A DNA stretch of 64,000 bases from Streptosporangium lutulentum (lineage in GTDB: Bacteria > Actinomycetota > Actinomycetes > Streptosporangiales > Streptosporangiaceae), in contig NZ_JAUSQU010000001.1 in the NCBI RefSeq assembly GCF_030811455.1, positions 8,184,001 to 8,248,000 on the forward strand, given 5' to 3'. Within the stretch, counting starts at the first letter, position 1, and the number at the start of each line of letters is the position of its first letter. Made by a program: the position numbers and the translations under genes. Of the stretch, positions 1-13,518 are shown in pieces. The notes beneath the pieces are model-generated. The model searched no databases. It saw only the letters and a list, made by a program, of their open reading frames with translations, and had not been told where the DNA came from.

Positions 1-39
1 GCCCCTGACCTGCTTGATCGCGAGGTGAGCCGACGATGA
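1..39 (+). CDS. C-terminal tail of an upstream gene (partial)
   Basis: Frame 1 is open from the window edge and stops at TGA 37-39, overlapping the next start as ATGA. Only 12 residues are visible (ending LLDREVSRR), so the product cannot be named. In actinomycetes the gene before an HATPase_c_2 protein is often an XRE/DUF5753 regulator, which is a guess here. Confidence 0.5.
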   Translation, partial: APDLLDREVSRR

Positions 40-440
40 TCCCACCCTCAGACAGCTGTGAAGGCGCTGGAAGATGGCACCGGACCTTTCCGGGGGAGAA
101 GGAACAGGTGCGAGCGGCCCGCCGCTTCGTGAAGGCTCACCTCCCCGACCACCCGGAAGCCGAACTCATCGCCAGCGAACTGGCGACCAACGCCGTCGAG
201 CACACGCGCACGGGGCAGCCGAGCGGACTCTTCACCGCGACCGTCAAGCGCCATCCCGACGGCACCGCCTACATAGAGATCGCCGACCAGGGCGGTCCCG
301 CCGCGTTCGGCCTCCCCACCCCCAACCGCGAAGGCGGACGAGGGCTCTACCTCGTGACCGCCCTCACCAGCGCATGGGGAGTCAAGGGCGACGCCGCCGG
401 CCGAACGGTCTGGGTCGAGCTACCCCCACCTGCTCCATGA
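36..440 (+). CDS. RsbW/SpoIIAB-like ATP-binding protein (HATPase_c_2)
   Basis: A 134-residue cytoplasmic protein of the GHKL ATPase fold used by anti-sigma kinases. The N-box is visible around residues 46-53 (ELATNAVEH), a G1-like segment as IADQGG (about 83-88), and a G2-like segment as GGRGLYLV (about 98-105). Such short stand-alone ATPases are abundant in actinomycetes; some phosphorylate anti-anti-sigma factors and most are uncharacterised. The ATG overlaps the preceding stop as ATGA, and the stop overlaps the next ATG in the same way, so all four genes here are probably co-translated. No sigma factor or antagonist lies beside it, so its partner is unknown. Confidence 0.85.
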   Translation: MIPPSDSCEGAGRWHRTFPGEKEQVRAARRFVKAHLPDHPEAELIASELATNAVEHTRTGQPSGLFTATVKRHPDGTAYIEIADQGGPAAFGLPTPNREGGRGLYLVTALTSAWGVKGDAAGRTVWVELPPPAP

Positions 441-1230: not shown

Positions 1231-2649
1231 TTGCAGATAATAATTAACAACATAGGCCCTATTCGGACCGCGACCATTGATATCGACCCTTTAATGGTCT
1301 TTGTTGGCCCGAATAATTCGGGGAAGTCTGTCGTGGCGACAGTCATGTACGCAGCACTTTCTCGCGTCCGCGTAGGGAGTATTGCACGCTTCTCAAATGC
1401 CTTTAGGGCTGCATTCAAAAACATTGAAGCAAATCTGGCAAACGAAGCCGAATCATTCCTTTATGAAGCATTTCTAGATAAACGTAAGCCGGAGCTTGAC
1501 GCTTTTCCTGAATACTTGGTCGACATCTATCGGGAAAGCATTAATGCGGCGTTGCAGGATTATGCGATTACCCTTACTAAAGAACTGGAGCGTGCGACTG
1601 GAACACCTATTGGCGGCTTGAGGCGTGTACAGAAGCGCGTCACCAAGGCTTCTATCGACATTGTTAGTAGTCGCCCGGGGTGGAAAGTAAACGTAACCAT
1701 CTCTGGAAAATCTCCCAAGGTTAGCTACGAGGCGCCATCTCTGGACGAAGTATGGTCGTTGATTAGCAATCAAGACTGGTCTCGCGTCCGTCGTCGCGGC
1801 GTACCGCGTAACGGTCGAAACCTATTGCGTGAACTAGGATTTGAGCTGAACCGCGCCTGCTTTCGCGAAGTTCCTCTGCATTCGAAATATTTGCCAGCGG
1901 CGCGCTCTGGCCTTATGCAATCCCATAAAGTCATTACAGGATCACTAGTGCGCGGATCCTCGCTGGCAGGCTTGCAGGAGATTCAAATCCCTACGCTCAC
2001 TGGCGTTGTGACGGATTTCCTTGGAGAAGTCCTGGAGTTAGATCCATCTGTTCAGTCTTCCCAAGGATTTGAGGAGGGGGCAAAAGAGCTGGAAAGAGAT
2101 GTCTTGCAGGGAGATATCCATCTAGTCGGGGATGCACTGGGGAATACTGAAGTTCTTTACGAAACACCTGCAGGTTTCTTTCCCGTTGGACGTACCTCTT
2201 CAATGGTCTCTGAGCTAGCACCGGTAGTTCTCTATCTTCGTCATGTCCTCCGGAAGGGCGATCTCCTGATATTTGAGGAGCCAGAGGCACATCTTCACCC
2301 TGCTACGCAAATCGTCTTGGCAAAAAATGTGGCGAAGCTTGTCAATCAAGGGCTGATTATCGCCTTGACGACTCATAGCGAATTCTTTCTCCAGCAGTTA
2401 AATAACGCCATTGTCGCATCTTCCATGGATGAACAACTAGCTATGGAGATGGGTATTGAGCCTGATGTGCGACTCAAAGCATCTAGGGTTAGTGCTTACC
2501 TATTCGAGCCTTCGACCACGGGGACAATTGTAACGCGGCCTCCAGTTGATCCGCTAGAAGGAATTCCTGAATCAAGTTTCGGTCTAATTGCTGAACAGCT
2601 GTACAACCAGAACGTGGATCTGGAAAGGCAGCTAGATGCCCCACTCTAG
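1231..2649 (+). CDS. OLD/ABC-like AAA ATPase of a candidate two-gene defence module
   Basis: A 472-residue SMC/OLD-type ATPase. Walker A is GPNNSGKS (26-33), Walker B is DLLIFEEPEAHLHP (344-357), and the switch histidine lies in TTHSEFF. The segment SSMVSELAPVVLYL before Walker B is where OLD-like ATPases carry their signature. There is no TOPRIM or HNH domain after the ATPase, so catalysis on nucleic acid is probably supplied by the next gene. The start is TTG 1231, chosen because AAAAGG at 1218-1223 is well placed and the N-terminus gives the family opening (IIINNIGPIRTATIDID). It is clearly more AT-rich than its neighbours, which suggests transfer from another genome. The stop lies inside the nuclease gene (14-nt overlap). 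Confidence 0.85.
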   Translation: MQIIINNIGPIRTATIDIDPLMVFVGPNNSGKSVVATVMYAALSRVRVGSIARFSNAFRAAFKNIEANLANEAESFLYEAFLDKRKPELDAFPEYLVDIYRESINAALQDYAITLTKELERATGTPIGGLRRVQKRVTKASIDIVSSRPGWKVNVTISGKSPKVSYEAPSLDEVWSLISNQDWSRVRRRGVPRNGRNLLRELGFELNRACFREVPLHSKYLPAARSGLMQSHKVITGSLVRGSSLAGLQEIQIPTLTGVVTDFLGEVLELDPSVQSSQGFEEGAKELERDVLQGDIHLVGDALGNTEVLYETPAGFFPVGRTSSMVSELAPVVLYLRHVLRKGDLLIFEEPEAHLHPATQIVLAKNVAKLVNQGLIIALTTHSEFFLQQLNNAIVASSMDEQLAMEMGIEPDVRLKASRVSAYLFEPSTTGTIVTRPPVDPLEGIPESSFGLIAEQLYNQNVDLERQLDAPL

Positions 2650-3118
2650 CTTAATTCCAGACCTCTCTAAAGCTCACGCTAGATGTTGTATTGTTACGCG
2701 CTGCAATGATGGAAATTGTAGTATTAAATTGCCGCGCTCTGCCGATACGTTGTCCTGTGTCTCTGGAACAAAGATGCAAGAAAATCATGATTTTGGCGAT
2801 CGAAAGCTATGCGATTTCCTTCTTTGGCTAAATAAAGAAGATGCCTTCTTGGGATGCGCGATCGAATTGAAAGGGGGCAAATCGAACATCAGTCATGTCG
2901 CCGAGCAGCTTCAAAATGGTGCTCAAATAATGGATCGACTTACAGGCGATATCAACCTGTCTTTTCATCCCATTCTGGTTCATGCGGGAATTAAGACAAT
3001 TGAGGTGCGTGAACTAGATAGAAAGAAGATAAGGTATCGCGGAAAGGATCATAGAATTGAGCTGATTCGATGCGGCATGGAATTGCTTTCGTGTAAGAGT
3101 TTAGCCTCATTTCGCTAA
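2636..3118 (+). CDS. Small PD-(D/E)XK nuclease-like partner of the ATPase
   Basis: A 160-residue protein. Residues 55-95 show the arrangement of a minimal PD-(D/E)XK core: D60 (KLCDFLL), then E77 and K79 (AIELKGG), then Q91 in HVAEQLQ. That order matches metal ligands, catalytic lysine and the helix glutamine of Mrr/RecB-like folds, though the assignment rests on pattern alone. Ser/Cys-rich residues precede it. GGAAAGG sits 6-12 nt before the ATG, and the gene overlaps the ATPase by 14 nt, so the two are co-translated. It is AT-rich like its partner. An ATPase sensor feeding a small nuclease is the usual logic of abortive-infection systems. A non-nucleolytic ligand-binding role is possible. 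Confidence 0.7.
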   Translation: MPHSSLIPDLSKAHARCCIVTRCNDGNCSIKLPRSADTLSCVSGTKMQENHDFGDRKLCDFLLWLNKEDAFLGCAIELKGGKSNISHVAEQLQNGAQIMDRLTGDINLSFHPILVHAGIKTIEVRELDRKKIRYRGKDHRIELIRCGMELLSCKSLASFR

Positions 3119-3280: not shown

Positions 3281-4534
3281 TCAAACTTCGGCGTCCATCC
3301 TGCCAAGACCCGCCACGAACTCGACCTGAGGTGAGCCGAGAGGACCCCACTCACTGAAACTGGCCACTGCATTCTCGACCAGGATGCGAGTGGCCTGTGT
3401 CCAGTCCTCAGCTGTGGTGGCAAACAACAATCGGTCGGCGCGCAGCCAAGCGGCCGCACGGCACTTCTTAAGGATCTCCCGCTTGCGCTCCTTACCAGTT
3501 AGCTCGCCGGGCGTCTTGCACTCCGCCACGGTCAGGACATCGTCGGTGTACACCACCAGGTCCACCTCAACTTGTGGTCGATTTCCCTGCAGGAACACGA
3601 TCTCCTCCAGGTCGATGAACGCCCCACGCTGTTCCTTGCGCTGTTTCCGCAGGTACGCCGACAGTAGGGCAGATACCTCGCCGTGTTCGCTCAACACATG
3701 GCGGCCCACTGGGTGCAGGTCGTAGAACCACGTAGGTTCGTCTGCGGGAAGCTTCCACGCGTGCCGATCAAGGTCATTTAACGCGTCGCAGCGGGCACAA
3801 CGCCAGCGCTGGCCGAGTTTGTCGACCGTCTGGAACTGCTTTTGCTCACAAGTCGTGCACCTGAGCACCATTCCCCGGCGCAGCACTCCAGCGCGGAGCG
3901 CGGCATCGGCATATTCACGGACGTCAGCCAATGCCAGATCAGCCGTTCGCGCGCAAATACCAGCGAATGTCAGCACACCTTCGGTCGATGAGAGCGAGAC
4001 ACCTTCCCCATCGGGGTACGCCACATTGCTTTTGGCACTGGTCGCCAGCATGGCGCGGAGAGCCGGCAGTAACGGACCACCGAAGAGGTCGACATATCGC
4101 CGACGCCCGCCGAGCATGCCTGCCAGTAGTGAGGTGCGCCGTCCGGCATCGCTGGGCAGCGCGGAGAGGTCGTGCTCGGCCGCTTTCGCTCGAACCCAGG
4201 CAGCGAGGCTGAGGTGCCGGAGTGCGACCCGTGCGAGGGTGTTCTCCGATCGGGTCCCTGCCAGGACGAAGTCATACCGTCGTGACCCATATGTCGCGCC
4301 ATGGCGACTGCTGCGTGCCCATGTCGGCATGAACGGCAGTTGCTCGGCGAAGAGCTCCCGGCTGTCCAGTCCGCGTCGGCGCACGGCGTGGTTCGGTTGC
4401 CAATGAACGTCGACCTGCCATTCCAGATCCGCGTGCGCGGCTAGCTCGCTGTTGACGAGCACCGGTGCCGGCAACGGAGCGACCATGCGGCTCGTGCCGT
4501 CCTCCGCCACGGATATCGGCACAGTGATTTGACT
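3281..4534 (-). pseudogene. 3' part of IS-split zinc-ribbon PD-(D/E)XK protein gene
   Basis: This frame encodes the last ~416 residues of a protein whose 5' part is at 5452-6642. It carries a zinc ribbon, CTTC followed 17 residues later by CARC (Cys 622, 625, 642, 645 of the joined protein). Further on is a PD-(D/E)XK-like nuclease core: D721 in VEVDLVVY, then E734 and K736 in VAECKT. A GTG at 4522 could begin a shorter 413-residue product after the insertion, but no good ribosome site precedes it. Removal of the IS with one ACT copy joins the halves in frame as QDQWDS-QITVPIS. A restriction or defence role is inference. Confidence 0.75.
4532..4534. repeat. ACT target duplication, left copy
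   Basis: ACT here and at 5452-5454 immediately flank the IS inverted repeats. It fits the 3-bp ANT duplications known for the ISL2 group of the IS5 family. Confidence 0.75.
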
Positions 4535-4550
4535 GAGCCTTTTTCATCCT
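4535..4550. repeat. IS5-type left inverted repeat
   Basis: 16-bp terminal repeat differing from the right end at one position. Confidence 0.88.
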
Positions 4551-5314
4551 TGGGCGAGCCGGTGGTTCTGAAGAACAGCGATGGCCTTGCACAGGTGTCC
4601 CGCCTTGCTGGGGCTGCAGCGGAGCTTTCGCAGGATGCGCCAGCTCTTGAGCTGGGCGTTCGCGCGCTCGCCTGGACCGCGCAGGCGGGCGTGTGACCGA
4701 TTGGCCCGCTTCTGCGATCCGGGCTTGTTCTTGCCCTTGTATGGAGTGAGGACCGGGCCTTCGGCTCCCTGGTAGGCCTTGTCTGCGAGCGTGATGATCC
4801 CGGCCCGTTCCAGCTGGCGCAGGATGCCCCAGATCCGGGCGGCGCTCAGATCATGGGTCTTGCCCGGCAGCGCCCCGGAGGTCCATAAGATCGTCCCGTC
4901 TGGTGAGGCGATGACCTGGACGTTCATCCCGTGTACCCGGTGCTTACCGGAGAAGTACGGCCGGTCGGCCTTGACCCGGTCGGTGCGGATGAGGGTGCCG
5001 TCCAGCACCAGGTAGTGCAGGCCGTCCTTGCTCGCTTTGCGCAGCGCTTGCCGGAGCTTCGGGGAGCGTGTCGACAGCAGTTTTACCGTCTCCTCCACGT
5101 AGCGCCATGCGGTCGTGGTCGACACTCCGAACCCGGCTCCGAGCTCGCTGAAGGTATCGCCCTTGCGTAGGTAGACCAGTGTGAGCAGGGCCTGCTGTCC
5201 GGGGTTCAGCCGCCGCCAGGTTGACCCGATCGCCTTGCGACGTCTGCGGATCAGGCCGGCTACGTAGTTCAGCGTTGAACGCGACAAATCGACGGCGGCG
5301 CGATAGAACAGCAC
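4544..5314 (-). CDS. IS5-family transposase (DDE_Tnp_4)
   Basis: A 256-residue transposase, close to the usual length for this group. An N-terminal helix-turn-helix (FSELGAGFGVSTTTAWRYVEE, about 57-77) precedes a DDE catalytic domain. The first Asp is in YLVLDGTLIRTD, the second in ITLADKAYQG, and the Glu in a helix rich in Arg (RLRGPGERANAQLK). GTG 5314 is preceded by AGGAG about 8 nt upstream. No frameshift is seen, so the element could still be active. Confidence 0.92.
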   Translation of the reverse strand: MLFYRAAVDLSRSTLNYVAGLIRRRRKAIGSTWRRLNPGQQALLTLVYLRKGDTFSELGAGFGVSTTTAWRYVEETVKLLSTRSPKLRQALRKASKDGLHYLVLDGTLIRTDRVKADRPYFSGKHRVHGMNVQVIASPDGTILWTSGALPGKTHDLSAARIWGILRQLERAGIITLADKAYQGAEGPVLTPYKGKNKPGSQKRANRSHARLRGPGERANAQLKSWRILRKLRCSPSKAGHLCKAIAVLQNHRLAQG

Positions 5315-5435
5315 CCGGAGCTCCTGGTTGTGACGGGCGTGGTTGTGGTGATCAACCCGTCTACCAGGAGCTTCTCTATGTCATCAGGCGAACGGCAGGC
5401 TCGCGATCAGGCTGTGACTTGCGGACCGCCATTAG

Positions 5436-5451
5436 AGGATGAAAAAGGTTC
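5436..5451. repeat. IS5-type right inverted repeat
   Basis: Complement of the left end with one mismatch; followed by the second ACT copy at 5452-5454. Confidence 0.88.
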
Positions 5452-6642
5452 ACTGTCCCACTGATCCTGCACGGCCAAGCCCACTGTCGCACCCTGTCGC
5501 CACGGCAGCTCCGGGCCCAGGATGACTAGGATGGCGGCATCTTCGTCCCTTGGGATTCTTGTTGGATACGCCGCCAAGAGGCGTTCACGCCATAGTTCAA
5601 GATCATTTTTTGATCGCGACATCGACGTGATCACGAGGCGATTGGCGCGTTGGACGAGGTTCCGCGCGATCCTTGTCACGCCGTACCCGATGGGCCACGG
5701 CATAGCGTCCTCGTCCATGCCTAGCATGGACGGCAGCCAGTAGGCGTTGCCGTAGGTCAGTTGCCAAAGGCGAGAGAGTGCGAAATCCTCCGCGCTGTCG
5801 CCCACCACCAAGAGCCCCGTGCGACGGAAATCGAGGCCGGTGACGATCTCGACCAAATGGGCCTTGGTGCGCTCATGTGCGGTCGGCGTTGTCCGTCTGT
5901 CCACCCCAAAAGCCGGGCCCGGATGCCACACCAGCTCATTGGGTGCCACGCCGTCCGGCTGGCCTAAGAGCCAGGACGTCAGCGTTTTTCGGACATCGTC
6001 ATCAAGCTCGGGCTCCTCCGCGTCGCGCGACGGCGGAGCGGCAACCCCAGCATAGGAGGCCACCGCGGCACCGAGTACGCCACCCCAGTCTGTCGGGCAG
6101 GCGAGGACAGATGCCTGCCATGTACCCGGCATGTCGGGGACGCTTGCGAAATGACCATTCGACTCCTCGTGCAGTGACATCACGTGCTCATGCCATTCAT
6201 CATCTGGGAACCGGGATCGATAGGATGAACATGCGGCGACGACCTGCTTCCGGGCCGCCTCATCCTCAAGGCTTGGCACCTCGTCAGCACCTACCACGGC
6301 GAGTAATTGCTCCCGATCGGCTCCTTCGAGAGGTTGGCCGTCCTCTCTGTCTACGGGGATAAAGCCGGGATGGAAGTGCTCGATATCCGCAACCGTTGGG
6401 TTGTACGTCACGACGAAGTCGGGGTCGTACGCCTCGCACGCCCGTAGAAGCATTGGGTTCACCTGCCCACCCTGGTGTGGGACAACCGCGAAGCCAGCAC
6501 CGCCCCAGACCTTGTCCGCACGGTAGAGCGCGCGGCGCACCCAGTAGCTCCAATGCTTACCACCGTCGACCACGATGATGACTCGCGGCGGACGCGGGGT
6601 GATACTGACCGAGGTGTACGACAGGGTCTCGTTTGAAGTCAC
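5452..6642 (-). pseudogene. 5' part of IS-split zinc-ribbon PD-(D/E)XK protein gene
   Basis: This encodes the first ~397 residues of the interrupted protein. It opens with an alpha/beta-like strand RVIIVVDGGKHWSYWV, then Trp/Pro-rich and acidic stretches (DAEEPELDDDVRKTL) and a second alpha/beta unit (TGLLVVGDSAEDFALSRLW). I do not recognise the domain. GTG 6642 follows GGGGCGG at suitable distance and is the likeliest start, but an IS3 element begins only 22 bp upstream, so the original start could have been removed. After the insertion the frame runs 15 codons into the IS and stops at 5407. Codon use is ordinary for the host. Confidence 0.7.
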
Positions 6643-6670
6643 TTCTGGGCCGCCCCGGTGAAGTTGGAGG

Positions 6671-7540
6671 CTAGATCGCTTGGTTCTCGATCGCCAGGCC
6701 GCCGTCGGCGGTTGATCGGTGGAACGTCTCCTCGTACTCGGCCGGAGGAACGTTCCCGCAGTAAGAATGTAGCCTTTCAGAATTATACCAGGCAACCCAT
6801 TCCATGGTGGAAATCGTCACATCCATGACGCCTTTCCAGCCGCCATGGAACTCGATTAGCTCCTTCTTGTAGAGACTGTTGAGCGACTCCGCAGCGGCAT
6901 TGTCATACGAATCGCCTTTGCTGCCCACAGAACGAGCCGCACCGACCTGGTCGAGCCGTTCGGCGTAGCGGATAGAAGTATATTGAACGCCTCTATCGGA
7001 ATGGTGAACAAGGTCATCGATGACGCCTCCACGCGCCCAGATCGCCATTTCCAGGGCGTCGAGTGCCAGATCGGTGCCCAGGTGGTCGGCGACCTGCCAG
7101 CCGACGATCCGACGGGAGTACAGGTCCTGGACGAACGCGGTGTACACCCAGCCGGAGGCGGTGGCGACATAGGTGATGTCCGCGACCCATCGCAGGTCCG
7201 GCCGGCCCGCGGTGAAGTTGCGTTCCAGCAGGTCACCGGGTCGATCGGCGCCGGGGACGGTGGTCCGGGGCCGTTTGCGCGACCAGGTCGCCCCGCACAG
7301 GCCCAGCTCGCGCATCAGCCGCTCGACCGTGCACCGGGCGACCGTGACGCCCTGGCGGTTGAGCTGGCCCCACACCTTCCGCGCCCCATATAGGCCACGT
7401 CCCGGGCCGTTCCACACTTTCAGGATCTCCTTTTTCACCTCTTCGTCCCGGACCGCACGAGCCGACGGATTCGACTCCCGTTTCTTCGCCGCCCAGTACG
7501 TGGACGGCGCGAACTCCAGCACGGCACAGATCGGCTCCAC
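6671..7540 (-). CDS. IS3-family transposase OrfB (DDE integrase core)
   Basis: A 289-residue retroviral-type integrase. The HTH_21-like segment GLYGARKVWGQLNRQG is followed by the catalytic triad: D in WVADITYV, D in HHSDRGVQYTS and E in NAAAESLNSLYKKEL. The tail WVAWYNSERLHSYCGNVPPAEYE is diagnostic for IS3 OrfB. It lies in the -1 frame relative to orfA, and its frame is open upstream to about 7600, so an OrfAB fusion by programmed -1 frameshifting is expected. It appears intact. Confidence 0.93.
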   Translation of the reverse strand: MEPICAVLEFAPSTYWAAKKRESNPSARAVRDEEVKKEILKVWNGPGRGLYGARKVWGQLNRQGVTVARCTVERLMRELGLCGATWSRKRPRTTVPGADRPGDLLERNFTAGRPDLRWVADITYVATASGWVYTAFVQDLYSRRIVGWQVADHLGTDLALDALEMAIWARGGVIDDLVHHSDRGVQYTSIRYAERLDQVGAARSVGSKGDSYDNAAAESLNSLYKKELIEFHGGWKGVMDVTISTMEWVAWYNSERLHSYCGNVPPAEYEETFHRSTADGGLAIENQAI

Positions 7541-8262: not shown

Positions 8263-8490
8263 GGTCAACTCCAAGTTTTGCGGTGAGGCCGTGACGATCG
8301 CTGACTTCGGTAACCGCCATTGGGTGCTGGGGCGATCGACGCCAAGCCCCTCCTTCGTCGGAACTTGCCACCGGTGACCATGGCTGAGGTGACAGCAGCG
8401 CTGACAGCAACGTCCCCACACACGGACTCACTTCGACCACCGTCCACCACCCTCTGACCACGGTCTCCGCTACCCGGCCAGGGTGATTGG

Positions 8491-8539
8491 TCCGCCTGAA
8501 AAGCGGAAGGTCGGCGGTTCGACCCCGCCCCTGACCACC
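8491..8539 (+). repeat. tRNA-Phe(GAA) 3'-half, attachment-core copy 1
   Basis: It contains a 5-bp anticodon stem (TCCGC/GCGGA) with loop CTGAAAA, placing GAA at positions 34-36, then variable AGGTC, a perfect T-arm (GGCGG TTCGACC CCGCC) and the acceptor strand CCTGACCA. No D-arm or 5' acceptor precedes it, so this is a displaced 3' end, as left when an element integrates into a tRNA gene. Confidence 0.8.
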
Positions 8540-8554
8540 TCATCTGAACAGTGC

Positions 8555-8645: not shown

Positions 8646-9050
8646 TCACACGGGCACTACGGTCACGATGCTTTCGAGCCCCTTGAAGTCGGCGTCGTTG
8701 CGTGTGTAGAGCGGCAGGCCTCGGGTGGAGGCCACCGCTGCGATCATCAGATCCATCCTGCGAGGCCGGGGGTCACGCTCGGCGGCGATGGTGAGGGCCA
8801 CCAGGGTTCCGTAGCGGGCGGCGGCGTCGCCGTCGAAGGGCAGGGGTTCGAAGTCGGCGACGGCTGCTCCCAGCTTTTCCATGCGTGCGGCTCTGATTCC
8901 GGCGTCCTTGGCCATGGCGACGCCCTGGTGGAGTTCTGCGAGAGTGATCGCGGTGATCTCGGGGATGGTCGGCAGCCGTGCCGGATCGATCAGATCCAGA
9001 TCGATGTATGTACAGGTGTCGAGCACTCCCGATTTGTCATGGTCAGTCAT
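8646..9050 (-). CDS. PIN-domain toxin, VapC-like
   Basis: A 134-residue PIN-domain ribonuclease. The acidic residues are in place: D in [12 protein letters not shown] in [13 protein letters not shown] in [12 protein letters not shown] and D in [12 protein letters not shown]. VapC toxins usually cleave tRNA or rRNA and are held inactive by a co-encoded antitoxin. Its start overlaps the antitoxin's end by 8 nt. The pair sits alone between tRNA-Phe core copies 1 and 2. Confidence 0.9.
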
Positions 9051-9324
9051 GATTGCGCTCCCAGGGATCGTCGTGGCTGCCGATGCGGTCTTCCGTACCG
9101 AAGTACTCGTCGGCCTCCTGGCGCATGAGTTCGTGATTTACACGCGGTAGTCGGCGGTGGCGAGCGACCAGTTCTTCCGCGGTCAGGCGCCGCCGGCGGG
9201 TCAGAGGTCGCAGTTCGGCGACCTCGATGCCGTTGCGCGTGATGTGGTAGACCTCGCCCGTCTCCACCGCGTCCATGACGGCTGCGGAGTTGTTGCGAAA
9301 CTCGCGCTGGGTAATCGTCTTCAT
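9043..9324 (-). CDS. Phd/YefM-type antitoxin of the first TA pair
   Basis: A 93-residue antitoxin. The N-terminal DNA-binding fold shows [20 protein letters not shown] and the beta-hairpin [19 protein letters not shown]. The C-terminal tail is charged ([19 protein letters not shown]...[11 protein letters not shown]) and should wrap the toxin. The ATG lies next to a 13-bp palindrome and has no obvious Shine-Dalgarno sequence, so a leaderless transcript is possible. A decayed relative lies at 59.4-59.6 kb. Confidence 0.9.
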
Positions 9325-9336
9325 ACATTCAATGTA
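9324..9336. promoter_or_regulatory. 13-bp palindrome at the antitoxin start
   Basis: TACATTCAATGTA is a perfect palindrome about one central base, overlapping the first base of the antitoxin start codon. It is a probable autoregulatory operator. Confidence 0.5.
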
Positions 9337-9504: not shown

Positions 9505-9551
9505 CGCCTGAAAAGCGGAAGGTCGGCGGTTCGACCCCGCCCCTGACCACC
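9505..9551 (+). repeat. tRNA-Phe(GAA) 3'-half, attachment-core copy 2
   Basis: Identical to copy 1 from CGCCTGAAAAGCGG through the T-arm and CCTGACCA, but the 5' side of the anticodon stem is CACGC instead of TCCGC. The shared block therefore begins inside the anticodon stem, which may mark the crossover side. Confidence 0.8.
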
Positions 9552-13471: not shown

Positions 13472-13518
13472 CGCCTGAAAAGCGGAAGGTCGGCGGTTCG
13501 ATCCCGCCCCTGACCACC
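13472..13518 (+). repeat. tRNA-Phe(GAA) 3'-half, attachment-core copy 3
   Basis: Same sequence as copy 2, with TTCGATC in the T-loop instead of TTCGACC. It is preceded by AGGGCGATTG, as are the other copies with minor changes. Confidence 0.8.

Follow-up and report, generated by a model that had tools for sequence, protein, structure and literature searches.

A probable ATPase-nuclease anti-phage pair of the PD-T4-4/WonAB type on a putative integrative element of Streptosporangium lutulentum

We analyzed a 64,000-nucleotide (nt) window of the genome of Streptosporangium lutulentum (contig NZ_JAUSQU010000001.1, positions 8,184,001 to 8,248,000), in which two overlapping foreign genes, here called A and B, encode an ATPase and a small nuclease-like protein. 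The pair very probably belongs to the superfamily formed by PD-T4-4 and the 'OLD-ABC ATPase + PD-(D/E)xK nuclease' operons, and by analogy with characterized members we consider it likely that the two proteins, encoded in one operon on a putative actinomycete integrative and conjugative element (AICE), act against phages as an ATPase-gated nuclease. This assignment builds on the observed homology of both genes, their intact catalytic residues, the order and recurrence of the pair, and its element context. An earlier note, written from the sequence alone, had proposed a new defense system; this proposal had to be given up, as A and B match PD-T4-4_A and PD-T4-4_B, and the architecture is already known because PD-T4-4 and the WonAB system of Vibrio cholerae have been published. 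New in the present case are the location of the pair as element cargo in a tRNA-Phe gene, the archaeal affinity of the ATPase, a cysteine-containing branch of B, and the rarity of the pair in the sampled actinomycetes. A recently characterized abortive-infection family is thereby extended to a mobile element of a high-GC actinomycete, and residues of the small nuclease are listed below that can be tested.

The coordinates, the overlap, the Walker motifs of A, and the residues D60, E77-x-K79, and Q91 of B given in the earlier note were all confirmed in the sequence (Table 1). The remark that the genes are AT-rich compared with the host also held: the G+C content (GC) is 0.494 for gene A and 0.435 for gene B versus 0.684 for the whole window, and the third-position GC is 0.48 and 0.42, respectively, versus 0.80 for a luxR-type gene that also lies in the window. 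Neither reading frame is interrupted, and both genes retain their motifs, start codons, and ribosome-binding-like stretches, among them AAAGGTG preceding the TTG start of gene A. This start aligned with the start residues of five relatives, and in related loci the junction between A and B is commonly a short overlap or gap, too.

Protein A contains a Walker A motif (GPNNSGKS, residues 26-33) and a Walker B stretch ending in E349-E350. It matched the Pfam families AAA_15 (E 1.6e-21) and AAA_21 (E 5.7e-9), and no TOPRIM match was obtained in the Pfam search, in agreement with its previous description as an OLD/ABC-type ATPase lacking this domain. In a PADLOC search of A, which returned 106 families up to E 1, PD-T4-4_A ranked first (1.5e-35), followed by PDC-M47A (9.3e-27), AriA (5.4e-23), NsnB (2.6e-18), and GajA (1.3e-12). 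NCBIfam gave 31 families up to E 1 with a best value of 5.3e-5, and the best 25 of the 31 were all under their own cut-offs. When a three-row lineage profile of A was compared by hhalign with 12 ATPases of the PD-T4-4_A/PDC-M47A type, a probability of 100 and an E value of 1.7e-41 were obtained over 419 columns. An alignment of 60 rows showed G26, K32, R225, E350, E352, H356, Q360, and H382 to be invariant; K32 lies in Walker A, E350 in Walker B, and H382 in the H-loop. The residues mutated in WonA, the ATPase of WonAB, were K34, R182, E300, and H333 according to the accessible part of that report (PMC12137116). Judged by motif position and not by sequence alignment, K32, E350, and H382 would be the counterparts of mutated WonA residues. 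The AlphaFold2 model of A had a mean predicted local distance difference test score (pLDDT) of 85.8 and in Foldseek matched Septu PtuA and the heads of Rad50 and SMC proteins.

Protein B carries D60, E77-L-K79, and Q91. Its sole PADLOC match up to E 1 was PD-T4-4_B, a weak one with an E value of 0.014. NCBIfam contained no family for B up to E 1, and B had no match among PDB sequences, plasmids, or genome contigs; profile A3 found none among PDB sequences. Two Pfam candidates, Tautomerase_3 (E 0.18) and DUF2726 (E 0.22), were rejected as they were under the family cut-offs. The critical columns are conserved in an alignment of 90 B-type rows, which includes B of the window and one split gene entered as two rows: D occupies the column of D60 in 86 rows, E or D position 77 in 88, K position 79 in 84, and Q position 91 in 74. 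A comparison of eight lineage B rows with 15 partners of the PD-T4-4_B/PDC-M47B type by hhalign yielded a probability of 94.5 over 64 core columns and an E value of 8e-8, which refers to one profile against one. With a profile built from those 15 partners only, B of the window scored 22.7 bits, the archaeal B of L180 19.1 bits, and a copy of the thaumarchaeal genome G679 (L153:4946-5431) 14.8 bits; the best of 1600 shuffled sequences reached 11.5 bits, and five of the eight lineage B rows scored no higher than this. The earlier reading of B as a small PD-(D/E)xK-like protein with the named residues was supported.

The AlphaFold2 model of B had an overall pLDDT of 58.6 and was confident only for approximately residues 51-112. 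It comprises a strand (61-67), a second strand (70-79), a helix (85-104), and a third strand (110-118), with D60 just ahead of the first strand, E77-x-K79 closing the second strand, and Q91 within the helix, so the conserved D...(E/D)xK residues follow the strand order of the PD-(D/E)xK core. Searches against solved structures with this low-confidence model (Foldseek and VIA) gave weak and mixed rows.

B belongs to a branch with the cysteines C23, C28, and C146, which are absent from most rows of the family. Within the lineage, C23 is present in 8 of 8 rows, C28 in 7 of 8, and C146, part of an RCG motif, in 6 of the 7 rows that are long enough. Of 75 other rows of the family, 4 had an N-terminal C-x(3-9)-C, as did 3 of the 11 rows in a branch from Bacteroidota, Armatimonadota, and phages. 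The lineage cysteines may form a metal site, possibly for zinc. A different deviation was noticed in the B-type proteins of L073 (Caldilineaceae) and of L053, L074, and L078 (Poribacteria), in which E-T-Q replaces the active-site E-x-K in alignment A3.

We inspected 132 loci (L010-L141) that had been fetched by ATPase similarity. An open reading frame (ORF) matching the B profile adjoined A in 105 of them, a count that is partly circular because the B profile was built iteratively from downstream ORFs. Where A scored at least 90 bits, a B-profile ORF was adjacent in 97 of 109 loci. The 12 misses comprise loci in which a B-profile ORF is present at a longer overlap (L020, L024, L086) or a longer gap (L107), loci at a contig edge (L060, L084), and loci without B (L031, L032, L058, L077, L080, L098). 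The two genes thus recur together. Independent checks were provided by the comparison of plasmid partners with PADLOC, by the profile-profile alignment, and by the shuffle test. Six of 23 matched plasmid records were examined, and all six contained a downstream small gene matching PD-T4-4_B or PDC-M47B; when these six partners were aligned with B of the window, the three invariant columns were those of D60, K79, and Q91. In the reverse direction, the B profile gave four matches in 196 archaeal genomes, three with A adjacent and the fourth at a contig start.

The B proteins of five relatives were also searched against PADLOC. A piece from L010 matched PD-T4-4_B (E 0.0027) and the partner of L043 matched PDC-M29B (E 1.2e-5); no match up to E 0.05 was found for the partners of L011, L012, and L161. 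The PDC-M29B match, L043:5418-5903, lies in a Methanothrix locus and hints that PDC-M29 is in the same superfamily. The closest relative, L010, comes from a metagenome assembly, and its nuclease gene (L010:5173-5660) is divided there between two reading frames. In further genomes of the G679 phylum, 11 loci (L160, L163-L171, L173) have a gene for 118-138 amino acids (aa) after the ATPase gene; by eye, these partners show E-x-T, E-x-V, or E-x-A at the site of the catalytic lysine and are perhaps inactive or a different partner. In L155 (195-3458, minus strand), a single ORF of 1087 aa carries a Peptidase_M3 domain followed in frame by the ATPase domain, a putative fusion that may also be an assembly error.

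Twelve kb of upstream sequence (L142) contain a tyrosine integrase gene, a gene for a pSAM2-type RepSA (3e-164), an FtsK/SpoIIIE-type gene, a helix-turn-helix regulator gene, and, at L142:3952-4027, a tRNA-Phe gene. A 52-bp repeat overlapping the tRNA gene recurs identically downstream of the pair (Table 1). Because integrase, RepSA, and FtsK-like genes are accompanied by the tRNA-Phe repeat at both edges, the pair is placed inside a putative 16.5-kb element reaching from L142:3952-4029 to position 8541 of the window; this element appears from its sequence to be a pSAM2-type AICE inserted in tRNA-Phe. The repeat occurs again in the window, with 49 bp of it at 9505 and partial copies at 13472 and 15276. 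This pattern suggests that one site received tandem insertions or retains remnants.

Two systems with phage data provide the closest comparison. PD-T4-4 of Escherichia coli was found by functional selection with phage T4 and, in the accessible part of the report, is located in an integrative-conjugative-like element (PMC9519451). It shares with the window pair the order of ATPase gene and small nuclease gene, homology of both proteins, and a carrier of this kind. It differs in the length of its nuclease (210, 209, and 198 aa for PD-T4-4_B of L004, L006, and L007 versus 160 aa) and in sequence, with identities of 21-22% for A and 14-19% for B, and the rows of L004, L006, and L007 showed none of the lineage cysteines. 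WonAB, from the WASA-1 prophage of V. cholerae, consists of an OLD-ABC ATPase without TOPRIM and the PD-(D/E)xK nuclease WonB of 16.1 kDa. According to the portions of the report available, protection requires both genes, the ATPase residues, and the nuclease lysine; the system acts between the start of phage DNA replication and capsid assembly and causes abortive infection, in which translation is inhibited and genomic DNA is not degraded, with phage DNA replication continuing at a 2.7-fold lower level (PMC12137116). WonB is toxic in excess, its toxicity depends on WonA and the ATPase activity of WonA, and rRNA or tRNA was proposed as the target (PMC12137116). The authors noted that WonAB resembles PD-T4-4 as well as an 'OLD-ABC ATPase + novel REase' operon (PMC12137116). 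The window pair has the same architecture as WonAB, to which we liken it by description and not by sequence; WonAB differs in that, in the text available, it was described from mainly Gram-negative bacteria (PMC12137116).

The earlier statement that known two-gene relatives lack such a small partner is contradicted by the PADLOC models for PD-T4-4 and PDC-M47 and by WonB, part of a system published with mutants and phage experiments (PMC12137116); at 16.1 kDa, WonB also shows that a small partner is nothing new. The PADLOC candidate PDC-M47 has the same architecture, with PDC-M47A matched by A as given above and PDC-M47B by the partner of L008 (2.8e-61), and differs in that B of the window has no PDC-M47B match. 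We know of no phage data for this candidate.

Septu, Gabija, and PARIS share an OLD-type ATPase with the window pair, and A matches AriA and GajA more weakly. Their partners are HNH proteins in Septu, UvrD-like helicases in Gabija, and TOPRIM proteins in PARIS; in Gabija the TOPRIM domain is part of GajA and GajB is UvrD-like, and in PARIS AriB is of the TOPRIM type. Membership in Septu was rejected, as a Pfam search of B up to E 1 gave no HNH match and B carries a D/E-x-K motif. In Pfam and PADLOC, A lacks a TOPRIM match and B lacks a helicase match, which excluded Gabija, and B lacks an AriB-type match, which excluded PARIS. Among the matches listed in searches of a mostly open-access literature without bioRxiv, there was nothing on the PD-T4-4/WonAB family in Actinomycetota or archaea. 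The main text of the WonAB report does not contain 'Actinobac', 'Actinomyc', or 'archae' (PMC12137116), and a survey of Actinobacteria names, in its accessible part, PD-T4-3 and not PD-T4-4 (PMC10482375).

Transferred from WonAB, the mechanism would be as follows. A, an OLD-family ABC ATPase, would form a dimer and serve as sensor and switch gating B. B would dock on A and be inactive or unstable before infection. Infection would release or activate B, which would then cut a host target, and growth would stop; through this arrest the infected cell would yield no phage. Dimerization, docking, activation by phage, and the abortive outcome are all taken over from WonAB. The favored candidate for the target is RNA, either tRNA or rRNA, and its cleavage by B is the least certain part of the model: the idea derives solely from WonAB, and we would put it at slightly less than an even chance.

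A reading that differs only in target and outcome is direct restriction, in which B cuts DNA that A has sensed as foreign or replicating, without suicide of the cell. DNA is most often the substrate of PD-(D/E)xK enzymes, and the resemblance of the fold of A to Septu PtuA and to Rad50 and SMC heads also fits this assumption. We nevertheless regard it as unlikely, as WonAB, as far as its accessible description goes, leaves host DNA intact and phage DNA replicating, at a 2.7-fold lower level, and stops translation (PMC12137116). Possibly with the same biochemistry, the pair might instead be cargo that keeps out other integrative elements, related phages, or plasmids and has no general role against lytic phages. 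Its residence on a putative pSAM2-type element in tRNA-Phe, at a site with further whole and partial repeat copies, would suit such a competition between mobile elements; the discovery of PD-T4-4 and WonAB through protection against lytic phages, as told in the available parts of both reports, argues against it and makes it improbable to us. That the pair is a decayed, functionless remnant could be suspected from the insertion sequence (IS) elements and the split gene adjoining it and from the lack of a second copy in the sampled genomes, and is very improbable in view of its two open frames with motifs, starts, and ribosome-binding-like stretches in place. We give hardly any credence to a toxin-antitoxin module for element maintenance with B as toxin and A as antitoxin, for which a small nuclease beside a larger partner and the toxicity of excess WonB could be cited, since A, with its 472 aa, is an ATPase whose motifs are intact and WonB toxicity requires, according to the text available, WonA and its ATPase activity, which is the opposite of an antitoxin. 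The anti-phage reading and these rivals overlap, and our confidence in them does not sum to one.

The closest relatives of A were archaeal. Among the best 80 of 133 loci from a scan of genome contigs with A, the first were L010 from a Methanosarcinales archaeon (E 4e-59) and L011 from a thaumarchaeon (E 3e-34; both values within the candidates), and the identity of A to L010 was 34% in a three-row alignment. In a tree of 112 rows, A grouped with L010 and L011 with a Shimodaira-Hasegawa-like approximate likelihood ratio test (SH-aLRT) support of 96. In a tree of 49 rows, it was sister to 11 archaeal rows with a support of 94/88, just under the bootstrap mark of 95, on a long branch (1.54). Membership in PD-T4-4 in the narrow sense, i.e., the clade of E. 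coli-type plasmid pairs, was rejected, as L004 and L006 fall elsewhere in the trees and A of the window lies with the archaeal rows. The archaeal pairs (L010 in genome G678, L180 in G1069, L181 in G903, and the copies in G679) thus contain the closest A relatives found among the matches listed, and in most rows their B proteins have cysteines at matching places and a C-terminal RCG/KCG-like motif. They differ in their archaeal hosts and in the eight A copies of G679. The window pair is thereby tied to an archaeal branch with a nuclease that is barely recognized by the PADLOC models (E 0.014 for B of the window; for the L011 partner, nothing up to E 0.05).

In the genome searches with the ATPase, mostly the top 4-8 candidates per genome were scored. 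No other copy was found by B in 99 relatives, and none was found by A in 395 other sampled Actinomycetota, by the PD-T4-4_A model in 391 others, or by the lineage ATPase profile in 249 other members of the family, results which, with so few candidates scored per genome, do not prove the absence of other copies. The lineage ATPase profile matched in 4 of 196 genomes of the phylum of G678, at E 1e-40, and in 13 of 200 of that of G679, at E 1e-20. G679, a thaumarchaeal genome of 1.4 Mb (L153-L157), has eight paralogous A genes, seven of them with an adjoining B-profile match; four of these matches had been in the profile and three had not (L155, the second copy in L156, and L157). Two pairs stand in tandem on one contig, and the genome displays a large expansion of a single defense type. 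When viral contigs were scanned again with the lineage ATPase profile, 36 loci were obtained, of which 31 were already in the set and none was closer. By tblastn, the archaeal A of L180 retrieved the same kinds of plasmids as A of the window (12 of 21 records listed), and in a phage collection A of the window matched three Vibrio phage records partially. A tentative proposal, which we favor less than its negation, is that an otherwise archaeal branch has spread between domains, with this pair, now moved by a conjugative element, as its representative in actinomycetes, and that the cysteine site, possibly binding zinc, links the N-terminal part of B to the C-terminal RCG motif and thereby confers a docking mode, switch, or target unlike that of WonB and PD-T4-4_B.

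Table 1. Positions of the gene pair, the element repeats, and neighboring genes (window coordinates unless preceded by L142)
Feature	Position	Strand	Remarks
Gene A	1231-2649	+	472 aa, TTG start; OLD-family ABC ATPase of the PD-T4-4_A/WonA type, without TOPRIM
Gene B	2636-3118	+	160 aa, ATG start; small PD-(D/E)xK-like nuclease of the PD-T4-4_B/WonB type
A/B overlap	2636-2649	+	14 nt; GGAAAGG directly 5' of the B start
52-bp repeat, left copy	L142:3978-4029		spans the 3'-terminal 50 bp of the tRNA-Phe gene
52-bp repeat, right copy (putative attR)	8490-8541	+	identical to the left copy
HATPase_c_2 regulator-like gene	36-440	+	within the same putative element
C-terminal piece of neighboring gene	3281-4522	-	zinc-ribbon-like, nuclease-like; same element, outside the pair
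Other piece of the split neighboring gene	within 5407-6795	-	IS between the two pieces
DDE transposase gene of the IS	4544-5314	-	Pfam DDE_Tnp_4, 2.8e-28

The broken nuclease-like gene and the IS that had been noticed beside the pair were both recovered, with two gene pieces lying around the transposase gene (Table 1). Besides a D...ECK motif, the C-terminal piece of this large gene contains a CxxC...CxxC stretch, and it had a weak PADLOC match to CARF_PDDEXK (E 0.013); a search of 79 other genomes at E 1e-10 yielded no relative. Between two copies of the att repeat, two small adjacent ORFs (8646-9328, minus strand) look toxin-antitoxin-like, a guess from their sequence.
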